From: Paenibacillus sp.
GTDB lineage: Bacteria; Bacteroidota; Bacteroidia; Bacteroidales; Muribaculaceae
Direction of reading: 5' to 3'
DNA: 64,000 bases
Assembly (NCBI GenBank): GCA_023663345.1
Contig: JAMPHR010000001.1
Coordinates: 1 to 64,000 of the forward strand
In this document: positions 4,217 through 50,093 of the stretch, piece after piece
Numbering within the stretch: position 1 is the first letter of the stretch
Layout of the letters: each line of letters opens with the position of its first letter
Notes under the pieces: model-generated
Databases searched by the model: none
What the model was told of the DNA's origin: nothing
The model's input: only the letters and a program-made list of their open reading frames with translations
Made by a program: the position numbers and the translations under genes

Positions 4217-6985
4217 TCATAGGATATGGCCCGTAAGCCTATGCTTACCAGAAGTCATGGTGCGGGGCTTGTCATCGCCGGGCACATACACTTCGGCCGT
4301 GGTGTTGGCCGGGATTGTCACGTCAAGAGTCACGTTTCCGTCACCGCCACGGTGCCATTCCACCTCGACATCACCGTAAAGGGTCGCCGTGCGTCCCTTG
4401 GCCATAGTGAGGTCGCCCACGATCGCGGGCTTTATGATGAAATGCTGCATACCGGGACGCTCGGGATCGGCCTGGATGCCGAGCAACGAGCGGAACAGCC
4501 ACTCGTCGATCTGTCCCATCATGAAATGGTTCCACGATGAACCCTGGCGCGGATCCCACTGCTCGGTGAGAGTGGTAGCGCCGAACTTCTGCTGGAAACC
4601 ATAGCCCGGAGCATCGTAATGGTCGTGCATCTTCCACATGAGTGAATCCTGACCATTGTCGGAGAGGGCACGGAACAGATATCTGTTGCCGACATCACCG
4701 GTGGTGAGACGGTCGCCATGCTCACGTATATCCCCAATAAGATTGGCAAGCACGACATCGCGTTTACCATTAGGCACCATTCCGAGGAAGAGCGGAAGGG
4801 CATTGGAGGCCTGACTACCGGTGCCGTAATCGCCTGTGGACTCGTCGAAATACTTCTTGTTGAACGCTTTCTTCACCTCCTCGGCACGGGCAGAGTAGAG
4901 TTTCGCATCGGCATCGTTACCAGTCAGAGCCGCAGCCTTGGCAAGATAAAGCAGATCCATATAGTAATGGGCCGAACCCACAAGCCCCACGGGTGTATTG
5001 CGGGAGAATCCGGCTCGGAAATCTCCGTAATCGTACCAGTCGCCGAGGCCGAAATCAATGAGATTGCCGTCGGCACGGGTGCCGAGGTATTCTACATAAG
5101 CCTTCATCCTGGGATAATATTCACGTATCAGGCTGTCGTCTCCATAAGTTTCGTAGTACATCCATGGAGATACAAGGATTGTAGCGCCCCATTCGGGGGA
5201 TTCGGCAAACGGTTCCATCCCGGGGCCCTCGAACACTATATACTGCGGAGCAGTGGTGGGCACCATGCCGTCGGCACGCTGAGAGTCGGAAATATCGCGC
5301 ATCACCTTGGGCATATAATTAGCCAGATCATAATTATAGAAAAGGCTCGGACCATTGAGATGCACCTCCTCAAGCCATCCCAGCTTCTCGCGGTGGGGAC
5401 AATCGGTGAACACCGACTGCATATTGCTTCGCTGGGCATTACGGATCAAAGTGTGAGCACCGGTCAGCACAGGGCTGGAGCACTCAAACGCACTTATCTC
5501 GGGGGCTGAATTGTAGATGAAACATGACTTTATATCCTCGACAACAGGCAGATCCTGCGGGTTAGGCTCACCGGCAAGCACAGCTCCCTCGAGCTGGATG
5601 TAACGGAATCCGTAGTAAGAGAAACGCGGATGCCATGTCTCGGGACCATCCCCCTTGAGAGTATAGGTATAGATATGCTGGCGTCCTGTCTGCTTCTGAT
5701 TGGCCGCATTCTCGGGTGTGACACCCTCGGCCACAAGCATTGTGATCTTCTGTCCGGCCTTGCCCTGGACTGTGATCTGTGGGAAACCTGAGAGATTCTG
5801 CCCCATGTCAAGAAGTATGGCAGAAGGATCGATCTTACGCTTGGTCGATACGGAAGCCTTCTCCACCTCGTCGGCGGTGAGCTTATGGGTGCTCTTCACT
5901 CCGAAATGCTCCATTATCTTGACCGGAGGAGCCATCTGGGGAGTGAGTGCCCCCTTGGGTGCGCGCTGCACCACGGCATTGTGCCAACGGCTGTCGTTGA
6001 ATCCGGGAGTGTTCCAGCCTTTCTGCTCAAGGCGGGCATCGTAATCCTCACCTCCATACATCGAATGGAAAGTGATGGGACTGAGCGAGTATTTCCATGA
6101 GCCGTCGGTCGACACAACCTCGGTTGATCCATCGGTAAAGCGCACAAGCATCTTGAGCCACAGGGTCTCGGGACCGAAACCTATCTGAAGCTTGCTATAG
6201 CGGTCGCCCTTAACGACATTGTAGAATCCATTGCCGAGCAGAACGCCTATGGCATTTTCACCCCGGCGGAGCATATCGGTGACATCGTAAGTATTATAGT
6301 ACACGGTGTGGTCATAATCGCTCCACAGGGGGGTAAACTCCCCGTCGCCTACCTTATGGCCGTTGATGGAGAGCTCGTAATGACCGAGACCGCACACGTA
6401 TACAGTGGCATCGGCCACCTTGCGGGGCACATCAAAGTCCTTGCGCAGAAGGATGCTCCGGTAGGCAAGTGAATCAACTTTCTCCCATTTCTCCTTCACT
6501 TCGGGTTTCTTCCATTCCACGTAGCTGTAGTTGCGACCGGATGGTAACGCCGCCTTGTCGTAATCCACAGCTCCGATCCAATCACCTTTCAGAAAGGCGG
6601 CATCGGGAGCCACACGAAACTCTGCAGGAGTACTCCATGAGGACACCTTGCCAGACTTGTCCCACACCCTTACACGCCAGAAATAACGGGTGAGCGGATT
6701 GAGCGTAGGCCCTGCGTAGCGCACGAGCTGGCTGGCGGAGGATTCGACCTTTCCGGAATCCCACACCGACTGCTTGCGCTTTCCGTCGCGGGTAAACACC
6801 TCAATCTGGTAAGCCGACTGGAAAGTGCCGTCGGCACCCATCATCTGCCAGCCCAACCTCGGCTCCGAGGTGGGCAGGGCAAGCGGGTTATCGGTCATCT
6901 CGCATGTGAGGCGTGTGATCTCAAGGGCTTGAGAGGACACGAACGCACACAAGAGGCACATGTATAAAAATATTCTTCTTTTCAT
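4217..6985 (-). CDS. GH78 alpha-L-rhamnosidase
   Basis: This enzyme should release terminal alpha-L-rhamnose by inversion in the periplasm. The 922-residue protein has a signal peptide (about 1-20) and an N-terminal fibronectin-like and lectin-like region (about 25-350). A six-hairpin catalytic domain follows (about 450-815), then a C-terminal beta-sandwich. The family motif DCPHREKLGW starts at about residue 529. E534 fits the general acid and E809 (in TLTEQWD) fits the general base. At the later motif position that is usually Asp, Glu541 is found. I prefer the ATG at 6985 over the GTG at 6988; it gives a TGATG overlap with the preceding GH143-GH142 gene, so translation is probably coupled. 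It is the last gene of the cluster. Which RG-II rhamnose it cuts is not evident. Confidence 0.9.
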   Translation of the reverse strand: MKRRIFLYMCLLCAFVSSQALEITRLTCEMTDNPLALPTSEPRLGWQMMGADGTFQSAYQIEVFTRDGKRKQSVWDSGKVESSASQLVRYAGPTLNPLTRYFWRVRVWDKSGKVSSWSTPAEFRVAPDAAFLKGDWIGAVDYDKAALPSGRNYSYVEWKKPEVKEKWEKVDSLAYRSILLRKDFDVPRKVADATVYVCGLGHYELSINGHKVGDGEFTPLWSDYDHTVYYNTYDVTDMLRRGENAIGVLLGNGFYNVVKGDRYSKLQIGFGPETLWLKMLVRFTDGSTEVVSTDGSWKYSLSPITFHSMYGGEDYDARLEQKGWNTPGFNDSRWHNAVVQRAPKGALTPQMAPPVKIMEHFGVKSTHKLTADEVEKASVSTKRKIDPSAILLDMGQNLSGFPQITVQGKAGQKITMLVAEGVTPENAANQKQTGRQHIYTYTLKGDGPETWHPRFSYYGFRYIQLEGAVLAGEPNPQDLPVVEDIKSCFIYNSAPEISAFECSSPVLTGAHTLIRNAQRSNMQSVFTDCPHREKLGWLEEVHLNGPSLFYNYDLANYMPKVMRDISDSQRADGMVPTTAPQYIVFEGPGMEPFAESPEWGATILVSPWMYYETYGDDSLIREYYPRMKAYVEYLGTRADGNLIDFGLGDWYDYGDFRAGFSRNTPVGLVGSAHYYMDLLYLAKAAALTGNDADAKLYSARAEEVKKAFNKKYFDESTGDYGTGSQASNALPLFLGMVPNGKRDVVLANLIGDIREHGDRLTTGDVGNRYLFRALSDNGQDSLMWKMHDHYDAPGYGFQQKFGATTLTEQWDPRQGSSWNHFMMGQIDEWLFRSLLGIQADPERPGMQHFIIKPAIVGDLTMAKGRTATLYGDVEVEWHRGGDGNVTLDVTIPANTTAEVYVPGDDKPRTMTSGKHRLTGHIL

Positions 6986-9900: not shown

Positions 9901-10305
9901 GTCCGATCCGGCTTTGGTGAAGCCGTCGGGCACAGGATATACGGGAAACAGCACTTCAGGAGCCGACCATGTGTAACCGTCGGACGAGGTCTGAAGAAGT
10001 GTGCGGCCACCGCCAACATGCTCGTCAACGGGGTTGGAAAGATAGTGCATGTAGAACTTACCATTCCAATAGGCCATCATGGGCTGATGGTTGTAGGTCC
10101 ATCCGTTTTCGTTAGGTGAATACAGGTCGTAACGGCGGTTGGCACGCATTGTCTGAATGTTGTGTACGCCCACAGTAGGCGACAGGGCACCGTCGTGACG
10201 GTTGGGATTGGAGAGCTTCGATCCGGTGTAATGCACCAGGTCCTCGGCTCCTGCTCCCGATGCCACAGCGATGGCGGCACCCAACAGCATTAGTTTTGTT
10301 CTCAT
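6985..10305 (-). CDS. GH143-GH142 type two-domain enzyme (DHA hydrolase and beta-L-arabinofuranosidase)
   Basis: The 1106-residue protein has a signal peptide (about 1-20). Its N-terminal half is a beta-propeller (about 25-410) with an Asp-box-like SKDGGNTW segment, followed by a concanavalin-like beta-sandwich (about 420-610). The C-terminal half is an (alpha/alpha)6 toroid (about 650-1090), with trehalase-like features such as CEWDGAIWPFASAQ. This order matches the known RG-II enzyme whose GH143 part removes 2-keto-3-deoxy-lyxo-heptulosarate (DHA) and whose GH142 part removes beta-L-arabinofuranose, that is, side chain D. The assignment rests on architecture, length and the RG-II neighbours rather than on checked catalytic residues. 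Start ATG overlaps the stop of the GH43-like gene by four bases (ATGA). Confidence 0.72.
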   Translation of the reverse strand: MRTKLMLLGAAIAVASGAGAEDLVHYTGSKLSNPNRHDGALSPTVGVHNIQTMRANRRYDLYSPNENGWTYNHQPMMAYWNGKFYMHYLSNPVDEHVGGGRTLLQTSSDGYTWSAPEVLFPVYPVPDGFTKAGSDITAKNMDAVMHQRVGFYVSKSGRLLAIGNYGIALHHKDDPNDGNGIGRVVREIYPDGSFGPIYFIYYNHDFNEKNTLYPFYTKSKDKGFREACKEIIDNPLYRMQWVEEADREDPAIPLKKPYKAFCWYTLPNGDIAGLWKHALTSVSKDGGNTWHEPVLRAKGFVNSNAKIWGQKLSDGTYATVYNPSEFRWPLAISLSSDGLDYTTLNLVHGEVPPMRYAGQYKSFGPQYVRGIQEGNGVPADGDLWVTYSVGKEDMWVARIPVPVETVASAHANENFADYPALADLTMWNIYSPVWAPVSLEKKDANTWLTLSDKDPYDVSKVERKIPPTRELTVEFDLMAEQNDHGNLLIEFVDDEGTACARLDLTPSGEFRSKGGARYGKILNYEPGKPYHVKVDVSVDNRNSTVYVNGEKKATRMLFAPVKSIERVVFRTGPHSNFPNVDTEADQTNDMPRANDVDPMAVYRIANFKSSSRDADASSAVLKYDDFAHHVDYFNGMEDENIAQAIPNSESSAWMKDNVPLFECPDEDMEQMYYYRWWTLRKHIKDTPVGYGMTEFLVDRSYADKYNLIACAIGHHIYESRWLRDPKYLDGIINTWYHGNDGGPMNKMMKFSSWNPDAVYGRYLVDGDLDALVKMYPDLKAEYARWEESHRLPNGLYWQGDVQDGMEESISGGRKKKYARPTINSYMYGNAKALAAIAEKLGKKDDQQLYENKAEEIKDLVQSRLWNKDHSFFETVRGDTCAQVREAIGYIPWYFNLPDKGVYDEAWLQLNDENGFSAPYGLTTAERRHPEFRTHGVGKCEWDGAIWPFASAQTLTALANYLNTEENPVVNDSTYFAQMKRYVESQHHRGRPYIGEYLDEVTGYWLKGDQERSRYYNHSTFNDLVITGLCGLRPRNDNDLEVNPLVPAGTWDWFCLDNVPYHGRNITIIWDKDGSRYHKGKGLSVMVDGKIVGNSPELGRIICKDVL

Positions 10306-11258
10306 TTCTGTTTGCTTTTTTCTATAAGATTCTCAACAACGGATTTCGGAGCACGGAACACAGTGCCATGCTTGTGGCCGGCAGGAATGGAGATACTGTC
10401 GGTAACATCAGTGAAATGTATGAAATCCTTGGTCTTATGGGCACTGTAAATGAATTTTCTGTAAGTATCGTAATACACGTAATATTCATCACCTACCTTG
10501 GCTACCGACGGGCCTTCGGTAAAGGACTCGGTGAAAGGCTCGGAAGCCTCGGAATACGGGCCCTCGGCATTCTTGGCAAACGCGATCTTGATATTACGGT
10601 TGGGACGGGTATTGTCCTTGACCACCATCACATAATCCTCGGGGCCTCGCTTAACAAGAGTGGCATCGATACAGCTGAAACCAGGCTCATAGAACAGCTT
10701 GGGATCAGAGAATGTGACAAAATCCTTGGTAGTCACGCAATAGAGGCGATGATTGTTCTTCTCATCCTCGATACCCACATCAAAACCGGCGTCGGGCACA
10801 CAGGAGGCATATACGATCATGAACTGCTCCTTCTCATCATCGTAGAACAGTTCGGGAGCCCACAGGTTCTGGGCGGAAACCACCGAGTCCATTGCAGGAA
10901 TACGGCGCTGCTCGGTCCAGTTGACAAGATCCTTGGAACTTGCATAGCCGAATCCGGTGTCACCCTTCCATGCGATGGTCCACACGAGATGATAGGTGCT
11001 GTCAGGGCCTACAACGATCGACGGATCACGCATGATATTCTGCCCAAGCATAGGCTTTAGCCATGTTCCGGCGATGCTGTCCCAGTGGATACCGTCCTCA
11101 CTGTAAAGGAAGCGGAGACCCTCGTCGGCAGGTTCATGGAATGAGGTGAACATATAGAGCTGCTCTTCGGGCTGCTCGGATGCCTTATTGGCCGACTGGC
11201 AGGAATAAAGACCGGCAGTAAGCCCCATTGTAGCTATGATTGCTGTTAATAATTTCAT
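10302..11258 (-). CDS. GH43-like five-bladed propeller lipoprotein
   Basis: The 318-residue protein begins with a lipoprotein signal (lipobox GLYSC, Cys20), so it should be membrane-anchored. It has the five-bladed propeller pattern of clan GH-F. D78 in MRDPS fits the general base and E248 in FTEGPS fits the general acid. Most GH43 enzymes cut beta-xylosides or alpha-L-arabinosides; this one's substrate is unknown. It lies between the GH78-GH33-like gene (34-base gap) and the GH143-GH142 gene (4-base overlap), which act on the two-sugar side chains C and D, so a role on these or on a neighbouring linkage is inferred. It is one of only two obvious lipoproteins in the cluster. A non-catalytic binding role cannot be excluded. 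Confidence 0.7.
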   Translation of the reverse strand: MKLLTAIIATMGLTAGLYSCQSANKASEQPEEQLYMFTSFHEPADEGLRFLYSEDGIHWDSIAGTWLKPMLGQNIMRDPSIVVGPDSTYHLVWTIAWKGDTGFGYASSKDLVNWTEQRRIPAMDSVVSAQNLWAPELFYDDEKEQFMIVYASCVPDAGFDVGIEDEKNNHRLYCVTTKDFVTFSDPKLFYEPGFSCIDATLVKRGPEDYVMVVKDNTRPNRNIKIAFAKNAEGPYSEASEPFTESFTEGPSVAKVGDEYYVYYDTYRKFIYSAHKTKDFIHFTDVTDSISIPAGHKHGTVFRAPKSVVENLIEKSKQK

Positions 11259-11292: not shown

Positions 11293-14200
11293 TTATAGAT
11301 CTATTTCGGCATGTTTGATGCGCTGGCGACGCCATGTGTACACCGCATGGAGCTTTCCATCCTTGCCCTGGATGATGCTGGGATAGGAATACTGGCTCAC
11401 GGGGCTATCCTCAAGAGTGATGACATTCTCCCAGTTGAGACCATCGTCCGACACAGCCACACACAGTGGAGTACGCACTCCCTTGGGTGTACCGTCGAGC
11501 GTAGCGAAATCGTTATATATAAGCACGTGACGACCATCGGCAAGAGTCACAGCATCGGTGCCTGAATTATTGTTAGGCATATCGATGAGTGTCATAGGTG
11601 TCCAGGTAGAGCCATTATCGGAACTCCAGCTTGTAGCCAGTTTGGCGTTACGTGTACGGCATATTATCTGCAGGCGTCCGTCGGCAAGCTTAAGGATGCT
11701 CGGCTGAATGGCATATATCGGTTCAAGTTTCTCCTTCTCGTTAGTACGGTAAGCAGAATCGGAGGGAAGCGCGCCAGTAGAATGCCATGTCTTGCCATTG
11801 TCATCGCTCATCTCGATCCATGCACGCCACCCTTTACCCTCGCGGCTACTTGGGGCGATGATGCGACCATTGATATACTCGGGCTTATTCTTGATCGGGC
11901 CAAGGATCCCTTCGGGAAGAGGCTCGCGGTCCGACCAGGTGATGCCACCGTCGGTCGAGCGTGTCACCCATCCGGTCCAATCGCCCACACTGGAGCCTAT
12001 CTTGAAGAACAGCATGATCTCATTCTTGCCGGGAATACGGAACAATACCGGGTTCCAGCAAGCTTTACGGCGGGCATTGGCAATATCACCCTTGAAATGA
12101 GGGCCTACAGGTCCGGCGGTTGCAGGAGTGGTCTCGGCATTGATGCCCGAAAGACCTGCAAGCTTGATGGTGGGATCGTTGAGATCAAACACACCGTCGG
12201 CTGCTATCACCGGCTCAGTCCACTCGGTAGCACCCTTAGGCTTACGGCATACCCATATCACACAATCGGGGTTTCTCTCCTTGGTGCCTCCGAAGAACGA
12301 AGCCACAAGGTCACCGTTGGGCATCTCCACAATGGTGGATCCATGACACTCGGGGAATGAGGTCGACTCATACAGGAATTCATCCACAAGTATGCCCTTG
12401 CGCTTGTTGCCGAGCGACGGATCCATCTTTATATCAAATGTGTACTTGCCGGATCCTACACTCCAATAGGAGTCATTTCCCTCGGTACGCACATATTTCG
12501 CGCCCTTGGCCTTTACGTTCTTCTTATCGGGTGTGGGAACACATACCATTGCAGTAGTATTGCAGGGGATCTCGATATTCCACACTATGTGCATTGGGGT
12601 CTTAACCCAACTGCTTCCGAGGAGACCGTAGGGGGTACGGTAGGTGGCACTGATGCTGTCGAGTTGCTGTATAGAGAAATCGGGCTTGAGAAGTATCTCC
12701 TTGTATCCCGGCTGGGCAGGATTAAATCCGGCGAGATCCTGATAATACCAGTTTAGGTGGTCACCGAGCATCATCACGTGGTTGTTGCTGTTCATACGCC
12801 AGCTTGCAGTATCGCCATTCCAAAGCTCCCATATCGTGGTGGCACCCTTGGAAATCTCGTATCCGTAGCTGGGATATGAAGTGTTGGTGGCCAGAAGGGC
12901 AGCAACATCACCCCGACCAATGCGTGAAAGCTCGCGCATGAGCCAGTTGACACCGATTACTCCGGTTGAGATATGCCCCTTGTTGGTCTCGATGATAGTC
13001 TTGATAAGATTATCGGCAACAGTCTCACGATATTCCGCAGGCACCATGTCGAAAGCAAGCGGAAGCACATTGGCGGTAGCGGTATTGTTACCGTAGAATA
13101 TGCTGTCGGGGTACAGGATATGAGGGGTCTTTACCGGCGAGGTACCTTTCTTCACTGTGAGGAAATGCTTGTTGAAAGCATCCTTCACCTTATCGGCATC
13201 AGCTTCCCAAGCTGATGCCTCGGCATCAAGACCCTGCAGACGGGCGAATTTGGCCATCATCTGGCACACCTTATAATAGTAAGCCGATGCGATGAGAGTG
13301 CCGTCGGTCTTACGGGCCGGATCCTGGCTATGCACCATCTCGGGTTTCTCGGGCGGAACGCACCAGTCACCATACTTATCAGCGGTGATAAGACCATCCT
13401 TGCTTGTATAATCCTCACGGATGTGGTGTAACCACTTCTTCATGGCATCGTAATTGCGCACGATGGGCTGGATGTTTCCGGTCTGCTCATAGAGCATGTC
13501 GCACACCACGGGAAGCGTGGACGACCATGTCATATCGGAAGTATAGTAGTTGTAATAGGCGGGAGCGATGTCGGGCAGACAGCCGTCCTCGCGTTGAGAT
13601 TCCCTCATGTCGTCCATCCACTTGGCGTAGAATGTTCCGTTGTCAAAGAGGAAATTCTCGCCCCAGGTACCCATGTTATGGTCTCCTGTCCACGGCTGAC
13701 GCTCATCGCGCTGGGGGCAATCGACCGGCACACCCTTATAGTTGCTCGCTATACCCCACCATGCATTGCGGTGGATGGCGTTCATAGTAGGATTGGAGCT
13801 GTGGAACGAACCATTGTCGGGCAGATTATCGTAAACAAACTCGGCCACGATATCCTCGGGCTTGAGATCCTTGAGGCCTGTTACCTCGACATACTGGAAG
13901 CCGTGATAGGAGAATTTAGGACTCCATTTCACACCTTTCTCAGTGCCGTTGGCAACGTATTTATCGGTGCTCTGGGCATGGCGGAGGTTCTCGACATTGA
14001 GCTGAGTGCTATCGGGTGAGATGCGCTCGGCATAGCGGATGAACACGGTGTCGCCCTTGGCCACATCGGAGATAGCGATCTTGACCCATCCGGCCATATT
14101 CTGGCCAAAATCCACAAGGAAACGATCACCGAGCTTACGCACCGACTTGGGGGTCAACGTGCGCATCACCTTCATGTTGGGGGCAGTGTTGCCACGCAGA

Positions 14201-15198
14201 GTGCCGTAGGGGAGTTCGGCCCGCTGGGCCTTGAGCCACTTGGAATCATCATATCCGGGGAGAGTCCAGTCGCCAAGCTCGAGAGAGGCGTCATATACCT
14301 CGCCGTCATACTCATTGTTGCTCCTGATAGGCCCCTTGGCTGTCAATGCCCACTTCTCATCGCTGTTGACACGTTGCTTGGTGCCATCGGTGTACTCGAT
14401 GATGAGATTCATGCGCATCTTGGGGTAGCCGAATGTGGGGATCTTATAGGGCTTGTAATTCTGACGCATGGTGTAGAAACGACCATTGCCGAGAGTCACA
14501 CCCACAGCATTGGCCTCACCATTACCTTTCAGCATATCGGTGACATCGTAAGAATTATAAAGGGTGGTGCGACGGTAATCGGTAGGCGCAGGCGCAAGCA
14601 CATCTTCACCGACCTTTTTTCCGTTAATATACATTTCATACAGGCCAAGACCTGAAATATGGGCCGTGGCTCGCTTAATCTGCTTTTTCTCGCTGTTGAA
14701 TTCCTTGCGGAGATAGCGAGAGCTCATACGGCTGTGGGAATCCTCAATATCCCATTCAAACGGACCTTCCCATCCAATCCAACGTCCGCCCCAATGACCT
14801 TCGCCAACGATACCCATGCCCCACTCGGCCATCGGGCTCCAGGGAGACTCGCCACGGGTGGTGGAAACCTTGACTTTCCAGTAGCAACGGGTGTTGTCGG
14901 CAATCTTCTTACCGGCATAAGGCACCCATACTGACTGGCCGGACTTCACTACGCCGGAATCCCAGATATCGGCCTTACCCTCGGCAAGCTTTTCAGGCTC
15001 GGATGCCACGAGTATATGATATGAGGTCTGCATGACGTCACGATCAGTGGATGTTATAATCCAACTGAGACGGGGCGATGGAGTCTCAATGTTAAGAGGT
15101 GTCACCAGTCCCTCGGTAGTGAGAGACCCGACATTCACAGCGGCTCTCATCCCTACTGAAACGAGAAACGTAAGCAACAGGATTGATATCCTATACAT
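11293..15198 (-). CDS. GH78 rhamnosidase fused to a GH33-like (sialidase-fold) hydrolase
   Basis: The 1301-residue protein has a signal peptide (about 1-19) and a complete GH78 module (about 20-925). Its motif DCPQRDER starts at residue 493; E499 fits the general acid and E791 (TIWELWNG) the base. A six-bladed sialidase-like propeller follows (about 930-1301) with the FRIP motif and three Asp-boxes (RSTDGGITW, MSDDNGKTW, SSDNGSTW). RG-II side chain C is alpha-L-rhamnose on Kdo, a ketosidic acid like sialic acid, so one polypeptide could remove the rhamnose and then the Kdo. A GH78-GH33 fusion is known from the B. thetaiotaomicron RG-II system as far as I recall. The next gene carries the chain D enzymes. 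A 110-base gap with a stem-loop separates it from GH140 upstream. Confidence 0.82.
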   Translation of the reverse strand: MYRISILLLTFLVSVGMRAAVNVGSLTTEGLVTPLNIETPSPRLSWIITSTDRDVMQTSYHILVASEPEKLAEGKADIWDSGVVKSGQSVWVPYAGKKIADNTRCYWKVKVSTTRGESPWSPMAEWGMGIVGEGHWGGRWIGWEGPFEWDIEDSHSRMSSRYLRKEFNSEKKQIKRATAHISGLGLYEMYINGKKVGEDVLAPAPTDYRRTTLYNSYDVTDMLKGNGEANAVGVTLGNGRFYTMRQNYKPYKIPTFGYPKMRMNLIIEYTDGTKQRVNSDEKWALTAKGPIRSNNEYDGEVYDASLELGDWTLPGYDDSKWLKAQRAELPYGTLRGNTAPNMKVMRTLTPKSVRKLGDRFLVDFGQNMAGWVKIAISDVAKGDTVFIRYAERISPDSTQLNVENLRHAQSTDKYVANGTEKGVKWSPKFSYHGFQYVEVTGLKDLKPEDIVAEFVYDNLPDNGSFHSSNPTMNAIHRNAWWGIASNYKGVPVDCPQRDERQPWTGDHNMGTWGENFLFDNGTFYAKWMDDMRESQREDGCLPDIAPAYYNYYTSDMTWSSTLPVVCDMLYEQTGNIQPIVRNYDAMKKWLHHIREDYTSKDGLITADKYGDWCVPPEKPEMVHSQDPARKTDGTLIASAYYYKVCQMMAKFARLQGLDAEASAWEADADKVKDAFNKHFLTVKKGTSPVKTPHILYPDSIFYGNNTATANVLPLAFDMVPAEYRETVADNLIKTIIETNKGHISTGVIGVNWLMRELSRIGRGDVAALLATNTSYPSYGYEISKGATTIWELWNGDTASWRMNSNNHVMMLGDHLNWYYQDLAGFNPAQPGYKEILLKPDFSIQQLDSISATYRTPYGLLGSSWVKTPMHIVWNIEIPCNTTAMVCVPTPDKKNVKAKGAKYVRTEGNDSYWSVGSGKYTFDIKMDPSLGNKRKGILVDEFLYESTSFPECHGSTIVEMPNGDLVASFFGGTKERNPDCVIWVCRKPKGATEWTEPVIAADGVFDLNDPTIKLAGLSGINAETTPATAGPVGPHFKGDIANARRKACWNPVLFRIPGKNEIMLFFKIGSSVGDWTGWVTRSTDGGITWSDREPLPEGILGPIKNKPEYINGRIIAPSSREGKGWRAWIEMSDDNGKTWHSTGALPSDSAYRTNEKEKLEPIYAIQPSILKLADGRLQIICRTRNAKLATSWSSDNGSTWTPMTLIDMPNNNSGTDAVTLADGRHVLIYNDFATLDGTPKGVRTPLCVAVSDDGLNWENVITLEDSPVSQYSYPSIIQGKDGKLHAVYTWRRQRIKHAEIDL

Positions 15199-19303: not shown

Positions 19304-19324
19304 GGAAGATTTCATTAATAAAGG

Positions 19325-19356: not shown

Positions 19357-19419
19357 TCATTTGTCAGATGTATCGGCTTGTAAATCGCATAGTTCACGCA
19401 TTGAGCGATAAAAAATAAA

Positions 19420-33692: not shown

Positions 33693-41116
<7,424 letters not shown>

Positions 41117-41147: not shown

Positions 41148-43844
41148 TCAATAGAACAGCCAATCCATGGCCTCGTCAGTGCCGGCAAGTGCGGCATTAC
41201 GCGCCTTGAGTTCATCGGATGTGAGTCCGAGCACCAGAGCATAGCCCTTGGGAAGCAGAAGCGAATGGGTGCCTGGACCGAAGTTATAGGCATGGATATT
41301 GGCAAGAGGCATATTTTCAAGATGGATCGCATTAGTGAGGACCGGCTCGGCCTGTCCATACTCACTGGCCGAAGCATCGGTCTCGAGTTTTGGAGCCTTG
41401 GCATACTTCTTCTGATCATCCTTGAAATAACCTATGAGCAATTTGACCGGAAATTTGCATGTAAACTCGATCTTAGTACCATCCTTACGTTGTCCGTCTC
41501 CGTTCACCACAAATGCTGTGAGGCCTTCAAGCTCGGGAGCCAACCCTTGGATCTTAGCTTCAGGCATATTTGAAAGGAGCGATGCACCCTCGGTGAGCTT
41601 CACTCGCTTCCAGTTGCCGTTCACCTTCACATCAGCATCCTTGACAGGTTCGATCTTGCTATCGGTCTCGGAGTACTTTCCGGCGGCCTTATCCTTGAGC
41701 ATAGCTACATTATTCTTATAGTTTTCAAGCTCAGCCTTGTAATGCTCGTAGAGTTCAGCCCAAGTCTTGTTCTTACCATTATCTCCAGCGATGGGGATAC
41801 GACGCATAGAGGTCTGCATACTGTTGGCATACAGGTAGGTGCTATTCGTAAGATCTACAAGCTGACGATAGTAGTCGAGACTCTCTTCAAGCAGAGGAAG
41901 GGCGGCATCGAGATATTTCAGATCCTTGGTCCACTGATAATTCAGCACCTCACGGGCAGCCTTGACCTTGCGGTCAAAGAAATAGGCAAACAGACGGTAA
42001 CACTGCATGTCGTTGCTCAGACGCGCAAACTCTTCATTATTGGCATCGACACTGCCACTCACACTTTCTATGGCAGCGACAGCCTTATCACCATGCTCAA
42101 CGCACTGGGCCGTAATGTCGAGAGGCAACTCACCGACATGGGGTTGTCCCTTGTGCTCTTTCTCAACAAACTCGATCAATTTTTCACCCTCTGGACCGCA
42201 ACTCTCATAGAATCCCGGATATATCGTGTACTTATAGGGGTTGACAAGCTGACTCATGAACATTCCGAGGAGAAGCGTCTGACGGTTGCCCTCGGTGATG
42301 CCGAAACGACGGAGCAGTTTGGGAGCAATCTCACCTGACTGCTCATAGGCCTCACGCACTGCCGCACCCTTATCATCGGAAAGGCCGTATGTGCGGGCAA
42401 AGCGGTGGTTCCAATATTTCTTTTCATCCTCACGGTCGCGACGGCAGTTCCATGCGTAACGTCCCCAACCCTCATACCATGTGCTGTCACGCACCAACTG
42501 CAATTCACGGCCTCCGGGGATACTGTCGGCCGTATAAGGCCAATCCCAATAGGAAGCCTGAGGATAAAGATGGAGAGCATTGGCACCATGCACATCGTGC
42601 ATAGCTGTCACGGCTTTCTGGATAAAATCGGGAGAGCTCCAACGCCATGGCTCAAGATTGGCGAGAATATGTACATTGCTGATATGCACACTTCCAAGCG
42701 AACTGAGACCACGATGTATCTCGGTCCATGGTCCACGAGGCTCATAGGTAGTGAGCGACTCGCCATTGTACTTGTGCATGGTATAGAGATTCTTGTAGAG
42801 AGGAAGGGCCGCATCCATCACCATCTTGCAATCGGTATCATGGGCACGGAGGAGCAACGGGGGCTCATCGGTGCGACCAAGCTTGGCAAGGCCGTCCTTC
42901 ACTCCTGGGATGATGGTCTCAGTGAACCATACCACATCATCCTCATAAGTATCCATAGCCTCTCCGAGACACACGAGCAGCCCCACATTAGGATACTTCT
43001 CGATAAACGCGGCAACGCTCTTGCGGGTGTAATCGCTCACCAGCGGAGTGATGGGACGATTGCGATCCTGGGTCTTGAGGCCGTAATGTTCGGCAAAGGG
43101 TTTGGAGAGAAGGATGTTGTAGAACATCTGGATAACGAAGATGCCACGCTTGTCGGCCTCAGATGTTATGAATGAGAACATCTCCTCATTCTTCTTGAAA
43201 GTCTCGTCATCCACTTCCACTGCAAACGGGTAATCCTCGAGTTTCACAAGTGAAGCGAAAGGATGACCGTTCCACAGATAGAGCGAATTCATGCGATTTT
43301 CCACAAGCATATCAAGATATTTCACCCACAGTTCCTTGTCATAGAACCAAGGGAAGTTCTCAGGTGTATATGGGTACTCATATACGCTACGACCGGGGAG
43401 CAGATAGGGTTTCTGAACACCCACACATGCACCACGGAGCACCATCTCGGGAGCATCAGTGAAAGATCCGGGTAGGTTGTCAAGATTCCCATCGGCCTGA
43501 ACACGGTCGATGAGTTCACGGCAAGCGTAGATAACACCCGAACCGTCATTGCCCATCACATCAATGGTATCACCCGAGGTTGTGATTGTGAACCCCTCCT
43601 TGGGACCAATGCTGTCGGTAGCCTGGGAGAGACGTATGAGTCTGACATCGTTCTTTCCATCAGGGATGGTCTCGAGGACTTCATAACCGTTGGCCTCGAG
43701 GGCTGTTTTGAGATGCCCGGCAGCAAATTTTACTCGATTGGAGGCATCATCGCCATACTCTATTGCTACTGACGGACGGCTGGAGCAACTCCATACCGCC
43801 AATGCCATCAGGCTGAGGGCAAATGTCTTGATCACTCGATTCAT
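41148..43844 (-). CDS. GH138 alpha-galacturonidase lipoprotein
   Basis: The 898-residue protein has a lipoprotein signal with lipobox AVWSC (Cys20). An N-terminal GH20/GH67-like alpha/beta domain (about 25-125) leads into a TIM barrel (about 130-470), a helical region (about 480-740) and a C-terminal beta-sandwich. E295 (CLGEAMD) and E362 (YNGESL) lie one residue off the catalytic pair I recall for the founding GH138 enzyme (Glu294 and Glu361). GH138 removes alpha-1,2-linked galacturonic acid from the rhamnose of RG-II side chain A. This family is rare outside RG-II systems. It precedes GH137-GH2 by 31 bases and follows GH78 by 5. Confidence 0.88.
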   Translation of the reverse strand: MNRVIKTFALSLMALAVWSCSSRPSVAIEYGDDASNRVKFAAGHLKTALEANGYEVLETIPDGKNDVRLIRLSQATDSIGPKEGFTITTSGDTIDVMGNDGSGVIYACRELIDRVQADGNLDNLPGSFTDAPEMVLRGACVGVQKPYLLPGRSVYEYPYTPENFPWFYDKELWVKYLDMLVENRMNSLYLWNGHPFASLVKLEDYPFAVEVDDETFKKNEEMFSFITSEADKRGIFVIQMFYNILLSKPFAEHYGLKTQDRNRPITPLVSDYTRKSVAAFIEKYPNVGLLVCLGEAMDTYEDDVVWFTETIIPGVKDGLAKLGRTDEPPLLLRAHDTDCKMVMDAALPLYKNLYTMHKYNGESLTTYEPRGPWTEIHRGLSSLGSVHISNVHILANLEPWRWSSPDFIQKAVTAMHDVHGANALHLYPQASYWDWPYTADSIPGGRELQLVRDSTWYEGWGRYAWNCRRDREDEKKYWNHRFARTYGLSDDKGAAVREAYEQSGEIAPKLLRRFGITEGNRQTLLLGMFMSQLVNPYKYTIYPGFYESCGPEGEKLIEFVEKEHKGQPHVGELPLDITAQCVEHGDKAVAAIESVSGSVDANNEEFARLSNDMQCYRLFAYFFDRKVKAAREVLNYQWTKDLKYLDAALPLLEESLDYYRQLVDLTNSTYLYANSMQTSMRRIPIAGDNGKNKTWAELYEHYKAELENYKNNVAMLKDKAAGKYSETDSKIEPVKDADVKVNGNWKRVKLTEGASLLSNMPEAKIQGLAPELEGLTAFVVNGDGQRKDGTKIEFTCKFPVKLLIGYFKDDQKKYAKAPKLETDASASEYGQAEPVLTNAIHLENMPLANIHAYNFGPGTHSLLLPKGYALVLGLTSDELKARNAALAGTDEAMDWLFY

Positions 43845-43849: not shown

Positions 43850-46051
43850 TTAAATATGCTTGTAAGTTACTTTTATTTCCTTGTCAGTATCTATTCTCAA
43901 CCGATAACTGTCCTTGCCGGTCTTTTCCACAGTACCATAGGTTGACTTGGGTGTCTTTTTTGACTTGAAATAGAGATAGCCCTCTCCCTCCGTCGCTTTC
44001 ACCTTGATCTCGCGCTCGTTGACATAAAGAGAGATCTCGCCGTTGGGAGTCGGCACAGTTCCCTCCATCCATTTGAGGCCTCCCAACTCAGGGGTGATGG
44101 AAAATTCCTGATATCCAGGTTTCATAGGCTTTACTCCCAGATAATACTTGCCGAGCAGATATATAGGACTTGCTCCCCAGGCATGGCACAGGCTCTTGCC
44201 ATAGGGACGGCCATACATGGCAAGGTGCTGCGTTCCGGAATCGGAAGGAACATATTTCTCCCAGAACGATGTTGCACCCTCACGTAACATACCACCCCAG
44301 TAGTCCTTGATCTCGCCAAGCACCTGGGTCTGCATTCCCTGACCGCATAGAGCTTCAAGCTCATAAAAACGCATATAAGGAGTGGTAATTGCCGGAACTT
44401 CGGGATTGAGCATGACGTTTTTCATAACAGACTCGGTAGTAGGCTCATCGAAGAAACCATAATTAATGGCAAACATATTGGCAAACTTGTTGATCTGATC
44501 GCTCTGCTTCCCGTTCTCGACATTATGTACAAGAGCCTGACGCTTATCATTCCAGAATGTGGGGAGGAGTTTGTCCTTAAGTTCACCGGCAAGTTTTCCG
44601 TATTTCGAGGCATCAGCAGTATCACCCACGATATCGGCACACATCTTCATAGTCTCAAGACTCCTACATAACAACACCTGCTCAAACGATAGGGCACCCT
44701 GCTTGCTCATGGGAAAATCGGCCCAGTCGACAAAGACCCAGTCACCAGTCATACCCTCGAGCATGCCATCCTTATTGGTGCGGGAGAGCACATAGTCCAT
44801 AAGTGTCTGCATACGGGGATAAATCTCCTTGACAAACTCCTTATCACCCGAATAAAGATAGTAGTCGTATATACCGTTGAACCAATACATGGTATAATCC
44901 ATGATGGTATTGATATGGGCTGTAACGGGATCCTTGCCACGGAGCAGACGGGTGGTGCGCTTCACTGTGGGGCTATCAAAAAACAGATAATAGTTCATAA
45001 GATAGCTCTGCACAGCATCTCCGCTCCACACCCAACGGTCACGCTTGATTCCATCGATAAAGAACTCGCGGGTAGTGAGGTGCATGGTGTAGGCACCAAC
45101 ATCCCATATACGATTGATCTCGGGATCGCTGCACTTGAATGATCCGCGGTATTCCACAGGGGCATATTCGTATAGCATGGCTATGTCACCGACGTTGACA
45201 CCCTCCTCAGGTGCCACATATACGTAGCGGAAAGCCTTGGTATTGTCAAGAGTATAGTCCCCTGAATTTTTTCTTACGGCATTCGTGGCAAGATCGGTGA
45301 CCTCATCGCCTGAGAAGCGTATCTTGTCGAGAGTCTCGCAATATTCCATGTCGAGTGCTTCCTCTGGACTCTCACCATAATATATATTGATTATTCCGTT
45401 GCCAACAGGATTCTTAAGCACTACACGACCGAAGGTCTCCTTGCCGAAGTCGTAAAGCTTACCTCCGTCGGCAGTCTTTTCAGTTACCGATACATACTGC
45501 ATGGGCTCGAGCTTGAGACTGTAGGCTGAAGGGGGATTGTCAATATCATTGAAGTCCCAGTATCCTGCAGAAGCATACTCTGTAGCTGAAGTGTCACTGG
45601 CCTTTCCGCTCTCGTCAATCCACTCCTTGTCCTCATTGGTCACACGCCAGGAGGAATCGGTGTTGACCGTAGAACCCTTGACATAAAGAGCCGGAGGGGT
45701 GGACTGATTCCACACCTTTATATTGAGCTTATGCTTGCCGGCAGGGATCTTAAAAGTTGAAGGCTGGCCGAACTGCAGTTTGCCGTCAAGTTTTACATTG
45801 TACTTGCCTTCGGCCTTTATGGTAATTTCTTCCTCTGCCGGAAGATCGAGGTCTTTACTGAACTCCACAGTCACGAAATGGCTGTCGGTCTTCCAGAACG
45901 GAGGGAAGAATGCTCCGCGCTCGGTGCGGTTATTGTTCATGCGATTACCGAGCCATATCTCATAGTCTCCTGGATACCATATCCATGTCTGTGCAGATGC
46001 CATTATACCCATGGCGAGTGCTCCGGCCAGTGTGGCCCATCTTTTATTCAT
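43850..46051 (-). CDS. GH78 alpha-L-rhamnosidase, short form with Asp at the acid site
   Basis: The 733-residue protein has a signal peptide (about 1-20), a beta-sandwich region (about 25-300), the six-hairpin barrel (about 305-630) and a C-terminal beta-sandwich (about 635-733). It lacks the extra N-terminal fibronectin-like domain of the two longer GH78 proteins here. The motif reads DGIKRDRWVWSGD (from D333) in place of DCPxRE, so Asp338 stands where Glu is the general acid in most members. E598 (SFWEKY) fits the base. The variant motif is also seen in other Bacteroidetes rhamnosidases, so activity is expected. It lies 3 bases after GH141 and 5 before GH138, as part of the tightly packed head of the cluster. 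Confidence 0.88.
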   Translation of the reverse strand: MNKRWATLAGALAMGIMASAQTWIWYPGDYEIWLGNRMNNNRTERGAFFPPFWKTDSHFVTVEFSKDLDLPAEEEITIKAEGKYNVKLDGKLQFGQPSTFKIPAGKHKLNIKVWNQSTPPALYVKGSTVNTDSSWRVTNEDKEWIDESGKASDTSATEYASAGYWDFNDIDNPPSAYSLKLEPMQYVSVTEKTADGGKLYDFGKETFGRVVLKNPVGNGIINIYYGESPEEALDMEYCETLDKIRFSGDEVTDLATNAVRKNSGDYTLDNTKAFRYVYVAPEEGVNVGDIAMLYEYAPVEYRGSFKCSDPEINRIWDVGAYTMHLTTREFFIDGIKRDRWVWSGDAVQSYLMNYYLFFDSPTVKRTTRLLRGKDPVTAHINTIMDYTMYWFNGIYDYYLYSGDKEFVKEIYPRMQTLMDYVLSRTNKDGMLEGMTGDWVFVDWADFPMSKQGALSFEQVLLCRSLETMKMCADIVGDTADASKYGKLAGELKDKLLPTFWNDKRQALVHNVENGKQSDQINKFANMFAINYGFFDEPTTESVMKNVMLNPEVPAITTPYMRFYELEALCGQGMQTQVLGEIKDYWGGMLREGATSFWEKYVPSDSGTQHLAMYGRPYGKSLCHAWGASPIYLLGKYYLGVKPMKPGYQEFSITPELGGLKWMEGTVPTPNGEISLYVNEREIKVKATEGEGYLYFKSKKTPKSTYGTVEKTGKDSYRLRIDTDKEIKVTYKHI

Positions 46052-46054
46052 GAC

Positions 46055-47878
46055 TTATAGGGATTTAAGGTATTTAAATTCTTTTGTGAGTCCGGCGTTG
46101 TCACGTATAGCCTCATCGACACCTGGTCCATTGTTCTCCCACACGTTGCCGGGACCATTGGCATTCTGGAGGTATTTCTCGGCTTCGGTCCAGTTGTCCT
46201 TCACATTGATAAAAGAAGAACCCTCGTCGGTGTAAAGATAGAACCAGTGGTTGGGGTCGTGGGCATAACCGGGGACGTAGATGTCACGCACACAGTTTTC
46301 GGTGACCCAGCTGTGTGGCTGCGATCCGAGAGTATATACACCTGCCACGTCATACATGTGCTTGGCATAGTGGTGTATCAGGTTGGCATGAACGCGGTTG
46401 TTGCGCATACAATTGACTGTGCGGATCCAGCCCCAGCCGAGGTTGATGCCGCTATAGGATACGTCGTTAATCTCGTTGTGTTCGATGTTGATGTCACGCA
46501 CATATCCGGCACAGATTCCGAGAGTGCCCCAGTCCTCATTGGTTACGTCAGTTATAAGATTGTTGGCTATGGTGAGGCCCGAGCATACCTCACGTCCATC
46601 GGCCGGATCGTAAGGGAGATGTGTTTCGTGTGATTCAGGACTGAAGCTACCCACTACAATGCCGTTTCCGGCTATGTCGCGGAACAGACAACCCTCTATG
46701 AGACCTCCACGAGTACCCCACTCATAGTCGAGACCAGAGGAACCAAGATGCTCGAAACGGCATTTGAGAAAGTCGATGCTGTTGGCACCGCTCACCTCCA
46801 CAGCTGCCTCGGGACGGCCAAGCCAACCCTGATTGTCAAGCTTATGATTCTGGTACCGCTCCATCTTGGGTTTGATCTTATATCCATCGGTCATATACAT
46901 GCCAGCCTGAAGAGGAACATGGCCCATGAGCGATGGACGCATCCATGTGGTGTACTCGAAACCTATGTTCTCGAAACGCACATTCTCAACCGGACGGTCG
47001 AGTGTACCCTCAATATTGACCAGAGTCTCCACTGCAGGCACTGTAGCCTCGGTAACGGTCTCGCCTTGACGGGGATAGTAGTATAATTTGCGGGTATCAA
47101 TGTCGTGATACCACTCGCCGGGCTGATCGAGTAACTCGCGGGCATTGGTGAGATAGAATGCCGAGTTATGACCGTCGGTAGTTACCATGGGGCGTGGCCA
47201 CGGATGCTCAAACTGGATTCGGCTCTCTGGGTTATGAAACCTTACCGCCGCACTATCGCCCTGAATCTCAATTGACTTAATACGGAGATTGGCCACACAC
47301 CACATCTCGTGGAGCACCATCTCAGCATAGGGGGATTTCTGTATCTTCTTCACAGCCTCAGCCGGTACCCACAGGATCTCGTTGACAGGATCGTTGTTGA
47401 TGATGCGGTACATCTTCTCAAAATCATCCACATCACGTGCTCTCACAGCTTTCTTACCGTTGACATAGAGTTGACGGAAGTCGAGGGGACGACCGTTGAA
47501 TTGAGGCACATCGGCAACCATGAGCTTGCCTTGACGCTTCCATCCAGTAATGCTGACGCCACCACTGATCCATGCGCCACCATCGGATTTTATCACAGTG
47601 GGAGATGACGGGGTTCCACTGTCCTCGGGACGTACAAACACGGGCTCGTAGACATTGTAGGTGCCCGGAGCCATGTGAATGGTAATTCCCGACTCTATGC
47701 CCTGAGCCTTGGTACGTCTCATCTCGCGAGCCTGGCGGAGTGCTGAGGTAAGGGTGGCTTTGGGTGAGGAGGCGGTACCATCGTTGCTGTCGAGGCCCGA
47801 CGGGGAAACGTAGACATCAGCCGCACTGAGAGTGAGCACTGAGAGCAGCATCGCTGCACTTATGGATGATTTCTTCAT
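46055..47878 (-). CDS. GH141 parallel beta-helix glycosidase (alpha-L-fucosidase type)
   Basis: The 607-residue protein has a signal peptide (about 1-19), then DVYVSPSGLDSNDGTASSPK, the usual opening of right-handed beta-helix enzymes, and inserted beta-sandwich strands (about 85-270). The helix follows (about 275-600), with acidic clusters SSGLDYEWGT and MYDVAGVYT that could hold the catalytic acids. The founding GH141 member removes alpha-L-fucose from RG-II side chain A; another GH141 acts on xylan. The RG-II neighbours favour fucosidase. It begins 127 bases after GH127, across a strong stem-loop. Confidence 0.85.
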   Translation of the reverse strand: MKKSSISAAMLLSVLTLSAADVYVSPSGLDSNDGTASSPKATLTSALRQAREMRRTKAQGIESGITIHMAPGTYNVYEPVFVRPEDSGTPSSPTVIKSDGGAWISGGVSITGWKRQGKLMVADVPQFNGRPLDFRQLYVNGKKAVRARDVDDFEKMYRIINNDPVNEILWVPAEAVKKIQKSPYAEMVLHEMWCVANLRIKSIEIQGDSAAVRFHNPESRIQFEHPWPRPMVTTDGHNSAFYLTNARELLDQPGEWYHDIDTRKLYYYPRQGETVTEATVPAVETLVNIEGTLDRPVENVRFENIGFEYTTWMRPSLMGHVPLQAGMYMTDGYKIKPKMERYQNHKLDNQGWLGRPEAAVEVSGANSIDFLKCRFEHLGSSGLDYEWGTRGGLIEGCLFRDIAGNGIVVGSFSPESHETHLPYDPADGREVCSGLTIANNLITDVTNEDWGTLGICAGYVRDINIEHNEINDVSYSGINLGWGWIRTVNCMRNNRVHANLIHHYAKHMYDVAGVYTLGSQPHSWVTENCVRDIYVPGYAHDPNHWFYLYTDEGSSFINVKDNWTEAEKYLQNANGPGNVWENNGPGVDEAIRDNAGLTKEFKYLKSL

Positions 47879-48005: not shown

Positions 48006-50093
48006 TCAGCGTGCAAGGGGAAGCCAGACGCTCATCTCGGCCTTGTCGCGGTTGCCCCAGGCATAGTAGGGTATGAGGGTGACATTGACTGTCTTGCCGG
48101 CATCGGCCACCTCGCGGTAGAGTTTGCCGGTCCAGTCTCCACCATTCACAAGGCGTGCCTGAGTGTCGAGTACGGTCATCTTGCTTCCGGCTATTTCTGT
48201 CTCTCTGGGAGTAAAAGTGGCATTGGCAGGTATGAGTACGTCGTCGAGTTTCTTTCCACCCTCGATGTCGATACCTTCAAGGCAATACACAATGGGTCCA
48301 CGCTTCACGGCCACATGGTTACGGGTCTCCTCAACAAGAGGATTGGACTCAAGCAGCTTGGTGCGCATTTCCATGTCGAGCACTATTTCATCTCCAGGTT
48401 TCCATGAACGGTCAAGAGTGATATAGCTGTCGGGAACCACCTTCACATTCTCGGGATTACCGTTGACTGTAACAGTGGCCTTGTCACACCATGAAGGGAT
48501 GCGGAGCTTGACGACAAAGTTCTTCTTGCCTGGCACCTGGTTGAGTGTGAGCGTCACTTTACCATCATAGGGATAGGCTGTGTGCTGTGTCACCTCGAGA
48601 GGACGTTTCTTGCCAAGCGATGTGCGCAGCTCGCTGTCTCCATAGAGGTTGCACCACAGGGTGCTGTCATTGACGGTATAGGCATAGTTCTGAGCCTCGC
48701 AGATGGTGCGGAGGGTATTAGGCGGACAGCAGAAGCAACTGATGTACTCCTCACGTGTCTTTGGCCAGCGCAGGGTGTAAGGCAGGTCATCACTCATGCG
48801 CAGAGGGTTGGTGTAGAAGTAGCGCTTACCGTCGAGGCTGACACCGCTGAGCACACTGTTGTAGAGAGCAGTCTCCACGATGTCGGCATACTTAGCATCG
48901 CCTGTCGACTCGAGCATACGCCAATTGAAGAGCATGTTGCCGATATTGGCACAGGTCTCGTTGTGGGCAGTGCTGTTGGGCAACTGATAAGGACGGCCAT
49001 AGCTCTGGTGTACCTTCTGTATGCTGTCAGGCTCGTAGCAAGTACCGTCGGGCGAAGTTCCGTCATAAAGGGCACCACAAGCTCCTGTAATATACATCTT
49101 GCGGTTCACAATATCGTCCCAGATGCTTGTGAGGTTTTTCATGAGCTGCTCCTCACCTGTCTCGGCATAGAGGTCGGCCACTCCGGCATACAGGTAGTTG
49201 GCACGCACGGCATGACCCATTGCGTTGTACTGGTCACGGAAGGGGATACGGTCCTGGTTATCGTCGGTTCCGTTCTCCACCAGACCACGTATGTTTATAA
49301 GGTTGTTGGCCAGATCCAGATAGCGTGGATTGCCTGTCTCGCGGTACATTTCCACCACACCCATATAGTGGGAGGGGCATATAGCGTTGCGGGCCAGCTC
49401 GGCTGATGCAGTCTCGTAGAAATGACACAGGAAGTCGGTGGCCTTGACAGCTGCGTCAAACAGCTCGGTCTTGCCTGTGGCTCTCTTGTGGATGATTCCG
49501 GCCATCATGAGGTGACCGAGGTTGTAGGTCTCGAAGTTGAGACGGTTGGCGAAAGCGCCCTTCTCATCCTCGGCTCCCACCTTGGTGCCAATCACTGTCT
49601 GAGCCTTGTGGGCGGTGTGGGTATCGACTCCACGGTTACGTTCATCAATGATCACAGGTGTGTGGATGTATCCGTCCTCTCTCTGGGCCTTCACCACCTG
49701 CTCGATGAACTTGTCCATGAGAGCATCGAGCTTAGGATCCTTGTTGACGGCATAGACAGCAGCAACAGCCTCGAGCCACTTGTACATGTCACCATCGTGG
49801 AAAGGGGGACCCCAGTGTTCACCGGGGCATGTACCAGCAGCGATCTCGAAGTTACGGAATCCATGGGACACGTCAGGATCGGCCCATGTCTCCCACATGC
49901 TCTGCAGGGATGTGCCACTATACACTCCGAATCGCTCGCCCCAAAATCCGCCTGTCCACTTCACCGCTCCGAGGGGGGTATTGGACATTACGGCATGACG
50001 ACTGCGCGAAGTGTCGGTAAGACCGTTATTCTGCGCTGATAATCCGAGCGATAACACTACGCCCGATAGTAGAATACCAAGTTTTTGATACAC
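48006..50093 (-). CDS. GH127 family enzyme, candidate aceric acid hydrolase
   Basis: The 695-residue protein starts with GTG at 50093 (no in-frame ATG between an upstream stop and this codon) and has a signal peptide (about 1-20). It has the GH127 (alpha/alpha)6 barrel (about 40-450) and C-terminal beta-sandwiches. E379 and C381 (NETCAN) with C455 and C456 (SCFCCPPN) match the zinc site and catalytic Cys of the bifidobacterial beta-L-arabinofuranosidase, with very similar spacing. In the RG-II pathway a GH127 enzyme removes aceric acid from side chain B, and beta-L-arabinofuranose is the classic alternative. It is the first gene of the cluster, with a full promoter about 46 bases upstream. 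Confidence 0.88.
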   Translation of the reverse strand: MYQKLGILLSGVVLSLGLSAQNNGLTDTSRSRHAVMSNTPLGAVKWTGGFWGERFGVYSGTSLQSMWETWADPDVSHGFRNFEIAAGTCPGEHWGPPFHDGDMYKWLEAVAAVYAVNKDPKLDALMDKFIEQVVKAQREDGYIHTPVIIDERNRGVDTHTAHKAQTVIGTKVGAEDEKGAFANRLNFETYNLGHLMMAGIIHKRATGKTELFDAAVKATDFLCHFYETASAELARNAICPSHYMGVVEMYRETGNPRYLDLANNLINIRGLVENGTDDNQDRIPFRDQYNAMGHAVRANYLYAGVADLYAETGEEQLMKNLTSIWDDIVNRKMYITGACGALYDGTSPDGTCYEPDSIQKVHQSYGRPYQLPNSTAHNETCANIGNMLFNWRMLESTGDAKYADIVETALYNSVLSGVSLDGKRYFYTNPLRMSDDLPYTLRWPKTREEYISCFCCPPNTLRTICEAQNYAYTVNDSTLWCNLYGDSELRTSLGKKRPLEVTQHTAYPYDGKVTLTLNQVPGKKNFVVKLRIPSWCDKATVTVNGNPENVKVVPDSYITLDRSWKPGDEIVLDMEMRTKLLESNPLVEETRNHVAVKRGPIVYCLEGIDIEGGKKLDDVLIPANATFTPRETEIAGSKMTVLDTQARLVNGGDWTGKLYREVADAGKTVNVTLIPYYAWGNRDKAEMSVWLPLAR

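Follow-up and report, generated by a model that had tools for sequence, protein, structure and literature searches.

Polysaccharide utilization loci (PULs) are usually called by SusC/SusD genes adjoining the enzymes, and the rhamnogalacturonan II (RG-II) locus BT0977-BT1030 of Bacteroides thetaiotaomicron has such SusC/SusD pairs. The gene cluster described here, found in a Muribaculaceae genome (G000; 2.64 Mb, 22 contigs, 86.6% complete), has none in or near it: its 18 consecutive genes occupy positions 4217-50093, all on the minus strand, of the first 64,000 bases of contig C11 (712,221 bases), a stretch that we analysed as a whole and call the window, and whose base 1 is the first base of C11. 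In the published passages available for comparison, BT0977-BT1030 is an RG-II locus with the hybrid two-component system (HTCS) regulator BT0981 (PMC3243724); our cluster holds the same enzyme families, and several of its proteins match solved enzymes of that locus, whereas no HTCS is found in or near it. A figure legend of the same paper names two RG-II-responsive PULs without an associated regulator (PMC3243724). Likewise, the available text on Bacteroides xylanisolvens XB1A describes PUL 2 (BXY_06320-06540) as a proposed, pectin-induced RG-II PUL for which no regulator was identified, its authors adding that the missing regulator may sit in a sequence gap (PMC4769552); as in our cluster, no regulator was found, but PUL 2 holds one SusC/D pair. 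Besides, BT1682/BT1683 of B. thetaiotaomicron is called an orphan SusC/D-like RG-II transporter in the part of the report available (PMC6776043), so that the separation of enzymes and importer has a precedent.

We consider it likely that the cluster is the enzyme arm of an RG-II system whose import arm, consisting of the SusC/SusD pairs named here A2 and A, is encoded elsewhere in the genome. RG-II or a partly cut form of it would be bound and imported by these pairs and then stripped in the periplasm by the products of the 18 genes, which would be transcribed as two units (GH127 to PL1 and GH95 to GH78), and the upstream motif CTTATTGTA, present on both units and the A2 pair in most relatives examined, would respond to one common regulator. 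The evidence comes from the enzyme families, the conserved gene order, the co-occurrence of SusD genes with the cluster and the sharing of the motif among relatives.

SusC/SusD pairs in the genome and its relatives

The preliminary description of this DNA had reported neither SusC/SusD nor a hybrid regulator in the cluster or its flanks. None of the 28 window proteins scanned was a SusD, a TonB-plug or a hybrid two-component protein, and the family searches of the whole assembly placed no SusD or PF00593 receptor in the window, including none of the 32 SusD_RagB and 39 SusD-like_3 matches (the two lists overlap). The first PF00593 match on C11 lies at 129.3 kb (gene start 127.6 kb). Using profiles made from the SusC/SusD of G000 itself, no SusC was matched among the 76 open reading frames (ORFs) of C11:1-127 kb, and the sole SusD match there was weak (10.6 bits, a 193-aa ORF at 100.2 kb); the HTCS of genome G165 gave a single match up to 127 kb, with 24% identity over 242 aa at 96.8 kb. 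The reported absence of SusC/SusD is therefore confirmed for the window and its right flank, where no SusC or clear SusD turned up as far as 127 kb; on the left, just 4.2 kb separate the last cluster gene from the contig end. The only large outer-membrane barrel, encoded at 54422-57277 (PF14905 and CarboxypepD_reg), has no adjoining SusD and does not match the SusC profile.

In two more distant genomes, G397 and G399, SusC/SusD pairs do adjoin the enzymes, and these served as queries to locate A2 and A in G000. The A2 pair (C11:697.5-702.6 kb; L051) showed 72% identity for SusC over 85% of the query and 62% for SusD, while A consists of two tandem pairs (C11:188.9-199.9 kb; L043, L044) with 52-53% for SusC and 41-43% for SusD; both are unlinked to the cluster. 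The SusC and SusD frames of the A pairs are full-length, and their tandem duplication was seen in G000, with a single SusD matched in each other genus genome having A. In a quick tree, A2 and A formed two clades of 15 SusDs each (support 100), apart from the other SusDs of G000, and PDB searches with both SusDs returned distant SusDs only.

The distribution of these pairs follows that of the GH138 gene of the cluster, which was found in 17 of 393 genomes of the order (E<=1e-50) and 10 of 397 of the family (E<=1e-100), own genome included in both counts; nine of those ten belong to the same genus (27 genomes). SusD A2 (E<=1e-70) occurred in 8/397 family genomes, all within the ten having GH138, with three candidates per genome scored where more turned up. 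Among the genus genomes other than G000, SusD A2 was present in seven of the eight with GH138 and in none of the 18 without it (Fisher 1.2e-5), and SusD A gave the same counts (7/8 and 0/18). The GH143-142 gene, for comparison, was found in 8/8 and 3/18, respectively. Four control SusDs of G000, searched at >=50% identity with up to 12 candidates scored in each genome, which makes the counts lower bounds, have no link to GH138 comparable to that of A2 and A: C11:182.9 kb was found in at least 3/8 genomes with GH138 and 9/18 without, C11:632.8 kb in at least 4/8 and 3/18, C16:264.6 kb in at least 1/8 and 0/18, and C15:487.2 kb had no orthologue among the candidates scored in the 26 genus genomes.

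The surroundings of A2 are those of an orphan pair. No homologue of the cluster enzymes flanks it in the eight genus loci fetched, and the flanks mostly differ between genomes, although five neighbours are common to G000 and G527. A2 also stands alone in B. xylanisolvens. Exceptions to a pair without conserved enzyme neighbours are found in G399, with RG-II genes next to A2, and in P. vulgatus, with A and a DUF6298 gene close to it. In this respect A2, alone in B. xylanisolvens and in this genus, is likened to BT1682/BT1683, a likeness of arrangement and not of compared sequence. Outside the genus, where the search covered GH138-bearing genomes, A2 and GH138 were on different contigs or separated by some 300-740 kb in six of the seven genomes having A2.

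The enzyme cluster and its promoter motif

The ORF list, together with Pfam and PDB matches, bears out the earlier count of 18 minus-strand genes and about 21 catalytic domains: there are 21, three genes being two-enzyme fusions, and the intergenic gaps range from -4 to 127 nt. Seven proteins out of the 18 have matches among solved structures (GH138, GH137, GH143-GH142, GH141, GH127, GH106 and GH140), six over almost their whole length and one by its GH137 domain alone, and we take these seven structures to be those of RG-II enzymes. GH137, GH138, GH140, GH141, GH142/143 and the aceric acid GH127 are linked to RG-II degradation, and the family and structure searches found this whole set in the cluster; all but the GH127 had been named from the sequence at first. 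A hydrophobic, signal-like N-terminal stretch was recognised by a simple rule in 18/18 proteins and a strict lipobox in none (in GH138 and GH43, a looser rule would accept a cysteine close to residue 20), which suggests export of the enzymes to the periplasm and would fit periplasmic enzymes in need of an importer. The features are listed below in the direction of transcription; most BT numbers and some GH names, GH139 among them, are our presumed labels.

50139..50169, minus strand: promoter-like TTG-N20-TAACTTTG ahead of GH127 (pattern scan)
48006..50093, minus strand: GH127, first cluster gene (PF07944; PDB 5mqo, E=0 over 8-695, which we take to be BT1003, aceric acid hydrolase)
46055..47878, minus strand: GH141, BT_1002-like (PF21231; PDB 5mqp 'Glycoside hydrolase BT_1002', E=0)
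43850..46051, minus strand: alpha-L-rhamnosidase-like enzyme (PF21209, PF17389)
41148..43844, minus strand: GH138 alpha-D-galacturonidase (PDB BPa0997 6hzf, E=0; NCBIfam NF049878 alpha-d-galacturonidase, 1420 bits against a cut-off of 1300)
36941..41116, minus strand: GH137-GH2 fusion with malectin domain (PDB 5mt2/5mui over residues 2-373, E 2.5e-199; Pfam GH2 and malectin; GH137 label presumed)
33693..36938, minus strand: GH2, LacZ-type (Pfam, NCBIfam)
30811..33648, minus strand: GH2 (Pfam, NCBIfam)
27553..30804, minus strand: GH106 alpha-L-rhamnosidase (PF17132; PDB 5mqm/5mwk, E=0 over 14-1079)
26074..27549, minus strand: SASA-type carbohydrate esterase (PF03629)
23771..26077, minus strand: DUF5703 protein, GH139-like (PF18961; the GH139 label is our assumption, given by no search)
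21143..23761, minus strand: GH2 (Pfam, NCBIfam)
19477..21099, minus strand: PL1-like pectate lyase (PDB 9buj pectate lyase, E 7e-39; NCBIfam PelZ 128 bits, well under the cut-off of 840)
19361..19476, minus strand: PL1-GH95 gap with terminator-like hairpin (-21.7 kcal/mol) and T tail, TTATTTTT
19325..19355, minus strand: promoter-like TTG-N20-TAATTTTG at the GH95 start (pattern scan)
16859..19360, minus strand: GH95 (PF22124)
15309..16751, minus strand: GH140 apiosidase (PF13204; PDB 3kzs/5msy, E 1e-219)
11293..15198, minus strand: GH78-GH33-like fusion (PF17389 and PF13088; GH33 label presumed)
10302..11258, minus strand: GH43 (PF04616)
6985..10305, minus strand: GH143-GH142, BT_1020-like (PF24067 'BT_1020-like', PF22422; PDB 5mqr, E=0 over 20-1105; GH143/GH142 labels presumed)
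4217..6988, minus strand: GH78, last cluster gene (Pfam)
4161..4192, minus strand: terminator-like hairpin 3' of the last gene (13 pairs, then T-rich tail)

The gene order is identical in all seven relatives of the genus from which the cluster was retrieved (G394=G581, G395=G632, G402=G593, G527, G612, G431 and G451), and therefore the enzyme-only arrangement is a trait of the lineage; in the eighth relative with GH138, G622, the cluster was seen in part only (L099). Some genes are split into two frames in G612, and two small ORFs lie between PL1 and GH95 in G395. All 18 enzyme genes have open frames in G000, with counterparts in three relatives that are 72-92% identical.

The hairpin with T tail in the PL1-GH95 gap and the promoter-like site at the GH95 start indicate that the cluster probably forms two transcription units, one from GH127 to PL1 and the other from GH95 to GH78. 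Such a hairpin and tail were found by rule in three of seven gaps (G000, G527 and G612, with the G395 gap excluded), while the one of G000 was missed by a simple terminator scan. The promoter-like site lies inside the longest GH95 ORF, whose true start is probably later. The pattern, with TTG-N20-TAACTTTG taken to be the Bacteroides-type promoter motif, had three matches in the window against 0.46 expected.

Upstream of GH127, the seven relatives have a TAACTTTG or TATCTTTG box starting 36-43 nt 5' of the gene, preceded at 48-50 nt by CTTATTGTA. This motif has 32 copies in 765 kb of genus loci compared with about 3.3 expected from a Markov model: nine before GH127, six reversed before GH95 (in 6/7 relatives), seven before the A2 susC and ten elsewhere, one of the latter counted twice in overlapping loci. 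The composite CTTATTGTA-N42-58-TAnnTTTG occurs nine times in 691 kb of genus loci, seven times before GH127 and twice before the A2 susC; other RG-II loci (916 kb) have a single occurrence, at a gene start, and 857 kb of G000 have none. Moreover, a matrix built from the seven GH127 sites was run over 369 boxes, of which 362 were held out, and the A2 promoters of G632, G451, G431 and G593 took four of the top five held-out places (hypergeometric 2.5e-7), with that of G612 also within the top eight (2.3e-8); the effective weight of this test is smaller, since the A2 promoters are orthologous and the loci had been selected for lying around the cluster, A2 or A. As a control, the exact TTATTGTA was present in one of 26 other susC upstream regions of G000. 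At the A locus of G581, one CTTATTGTA copy lies 367 nt upstream on the other strand.

The preliminary description had argued that import and control must be encoded elsewhere. For import this now finds support, because the cluster co-occurs with two SusC/SusD pairs unlinked to it, one of which shares its motif in relatives; for control, no regulator was found. More tentatively, RG-II use in this genus may follow a dispersed regulon and not a PUL, made up of a two-unit enzyme cluster, two orphan importers and a SusC/SusD-PL1-DUF6298 module, co-inherited and mostly unlinked, where the cluster and one importer would share the operator CTTATTGTA (48-55 nt before the -7 box) and one trans-acting regulator, and where A2 would be a common RG-II importer of many Bacteroidales. 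The literature searched, as far as its available text goes, held no description of a fixed split form in this genus, of two orphan pairs tracking the enzymes or of the shared motif, and no RG-II locus appears in the titles and opening abstract lines of the Muribaculaceae papers that it returned. With PULs called by SusC/SusD, an enzyme-only cluster can therefore be missed or its host read as a scavenger. Presence and absence across relatives, combined with a promoter motif, name the likely importers, thus making the RG-II transport step directly testable.

Alternative explanations

Several observations weigh against A2 and A as the import arm. No match to A2 was obtained in G581 or in G760, a GH138 genome of another genus, and none to A in G622 or G760, and beyond the genus A2 (>=48% identity) occurs in only 7/20 GH138 genomes. 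Members of a genus share ancestry, so the co-occurrence counts are not independent, and the candidates scored per genome numbered three in the A2 survey and at most 12 for the control SusDs. The motif scan took in loci around the cluster, A2 and A rather than whole genomes, ten of the 32 CTTATTGTA copies lie elsewhere in those loci, and in G527 and G622 the A2 promoter fails to rank. In G000 itself GH127 is preceded by a degenerate site (score 5.8, ranking 17th in its list) and no site was found before the A2 susC, and the motif was not found before the A susC in G000, G451 or G581. Additionally, the A2 susC of G000 (C11:697.5-700.6 kb) has its frame broken near the start at a homopolymer; relatives have intact copies. 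Assembly errors are common at homopolymers, and the break could be such an error, slippage or decay.

An unlikely alternative is that the main importer is a module, named B (SusC-SusD-PL1-DUF6298), lying just past the contig end, which would make the cluster an ordinary PUL truncated in the assembly at window base 1. The DUF6298 gene, encoding proteins of about 1030 aa found alongside RG-II genes (L187, L192, L062), is present in all eight other genus genomes with GH138 and in none of the 18 without, which suggests that this family of unknown function is linked to RG-II. In G395 (=G632), the module is found complete 4-16 kb past the last GH78 gene, G527 and G431 have a DUF6298 gene within 10 kb, G394 and G402 have a SusD match about 6 kb away from DUF6298, and of the two DUF6298 copies of G612 one would come to lie some 85 kb from the cluster, provided that the contig is circular. 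However, DUF6298 is about 1.55 Mb away from the cluster on a 2.63 Mb contig in G581 (=G394) and on a different contig from it in G451, the nearby copies are on the opposite strand, the last 4.2 kb before the contig end in G000 hold other genes and a terminator-like hairpin, and DUF6298 was not found in the G000 assembly. The motif was not found before the SusC or the DUF6298 gene of the G395 module. A second set of GH143-142, esterase and DUF6298 genes lies on another contig of G632 (C1:0.8-11.5 kb).

Less probable still is the scavenger proposed in the preliminary description, a strain that has lost RG-II import and uses its enzymes on small fragments freed by others. This explanation is kept alive by the missing match to DUF6298 and to a BT1017-like esterase in G000 and by the broken A2 susC. 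The available description of the BT1017 pectin methylesterase gives S282, D352 and H388 (PMC7939467), and the 446-aa esterase of the relatives, which ends the cluster in seven of the eight with GH138, has GxSxGG with S283, D353 (or D350) and H389 as candidates by motif position, unaligned; it differs in having no DUF3826 match. In G000, no esterase match was obtained at E<=1e-70 (12 of 52 candidates scored) and none in 857 kb. Scavenging is weakened by the signal-like starts without lipobox, by the 18 open enzyme frames with their conserved counterparts, by the duplicated, full-length A pairs, and by a susC break that falls at a homopolymer in an incomplete genome. The peculiarities of G000 (esterase, A2 susC frame and tandem A) may be real losses or assembly gaps.

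Equally improbable is a co-occurrence that only mirrors phylogeny, the GH138 genomes being a subclade with many genes in common, including A2 and A: nine of the ten family genomes with GH138 fall in one genus and the counts were made without a species tree, but the four control SusDs show no such restriction (with no more than 12 candidates scored for each genome), SusDs of the A2 and A clades are likewise present in GH138 genomes beyond the genus, and the promoter motif ties A2 to the cluster independently.

Regulator candidates and neighbouring genes

Four candidates for the control of the proposed enzyme and import arms were examined and rejected. An extracytoplasmic function (ECF) sigma/anti-sigma pair adjoining A2 was not borne out in G632, where A2 stands beside genes for a lipocalin-like protein, a glycosyltransferase, a phosphoribosyltransferase and a phosphatase, or in G000, where the four upstream proteins scanned had no Pfam match and a histidine kinase lies downstream. 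The 1344-aa HTCS at C11:204.5 kb, considered for A, adjoins GH115 and has no homologue at the A loci of G451 and G581. An RNA family was discarded with no Rfam match at gathering score. A conserved divergent regulator ahead of GH127 was also set aside, as this place holds a GH31 gene in G000 (50395-52785, divergent from the cluster) and a GH29-type fucosidase in G394; genes similar in length to this fucosidase stand there in G527, G431 and G612.

The nearest named matches to the GH138 of G000 (83-84%) come from metagenome-assembled genomes (MAGs) labelled Muribaculaceae, Bacteroides and Staphylococcus. The cluster is also borne by JAMPDC010000001.1 (L100), a MAG contig of 2.63 Mb that carries the label Staphylococcus sp., probably wrongly. 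In the distant genome G357 (L017/L018), GH138 is found in two frames, with stop codons within one part.

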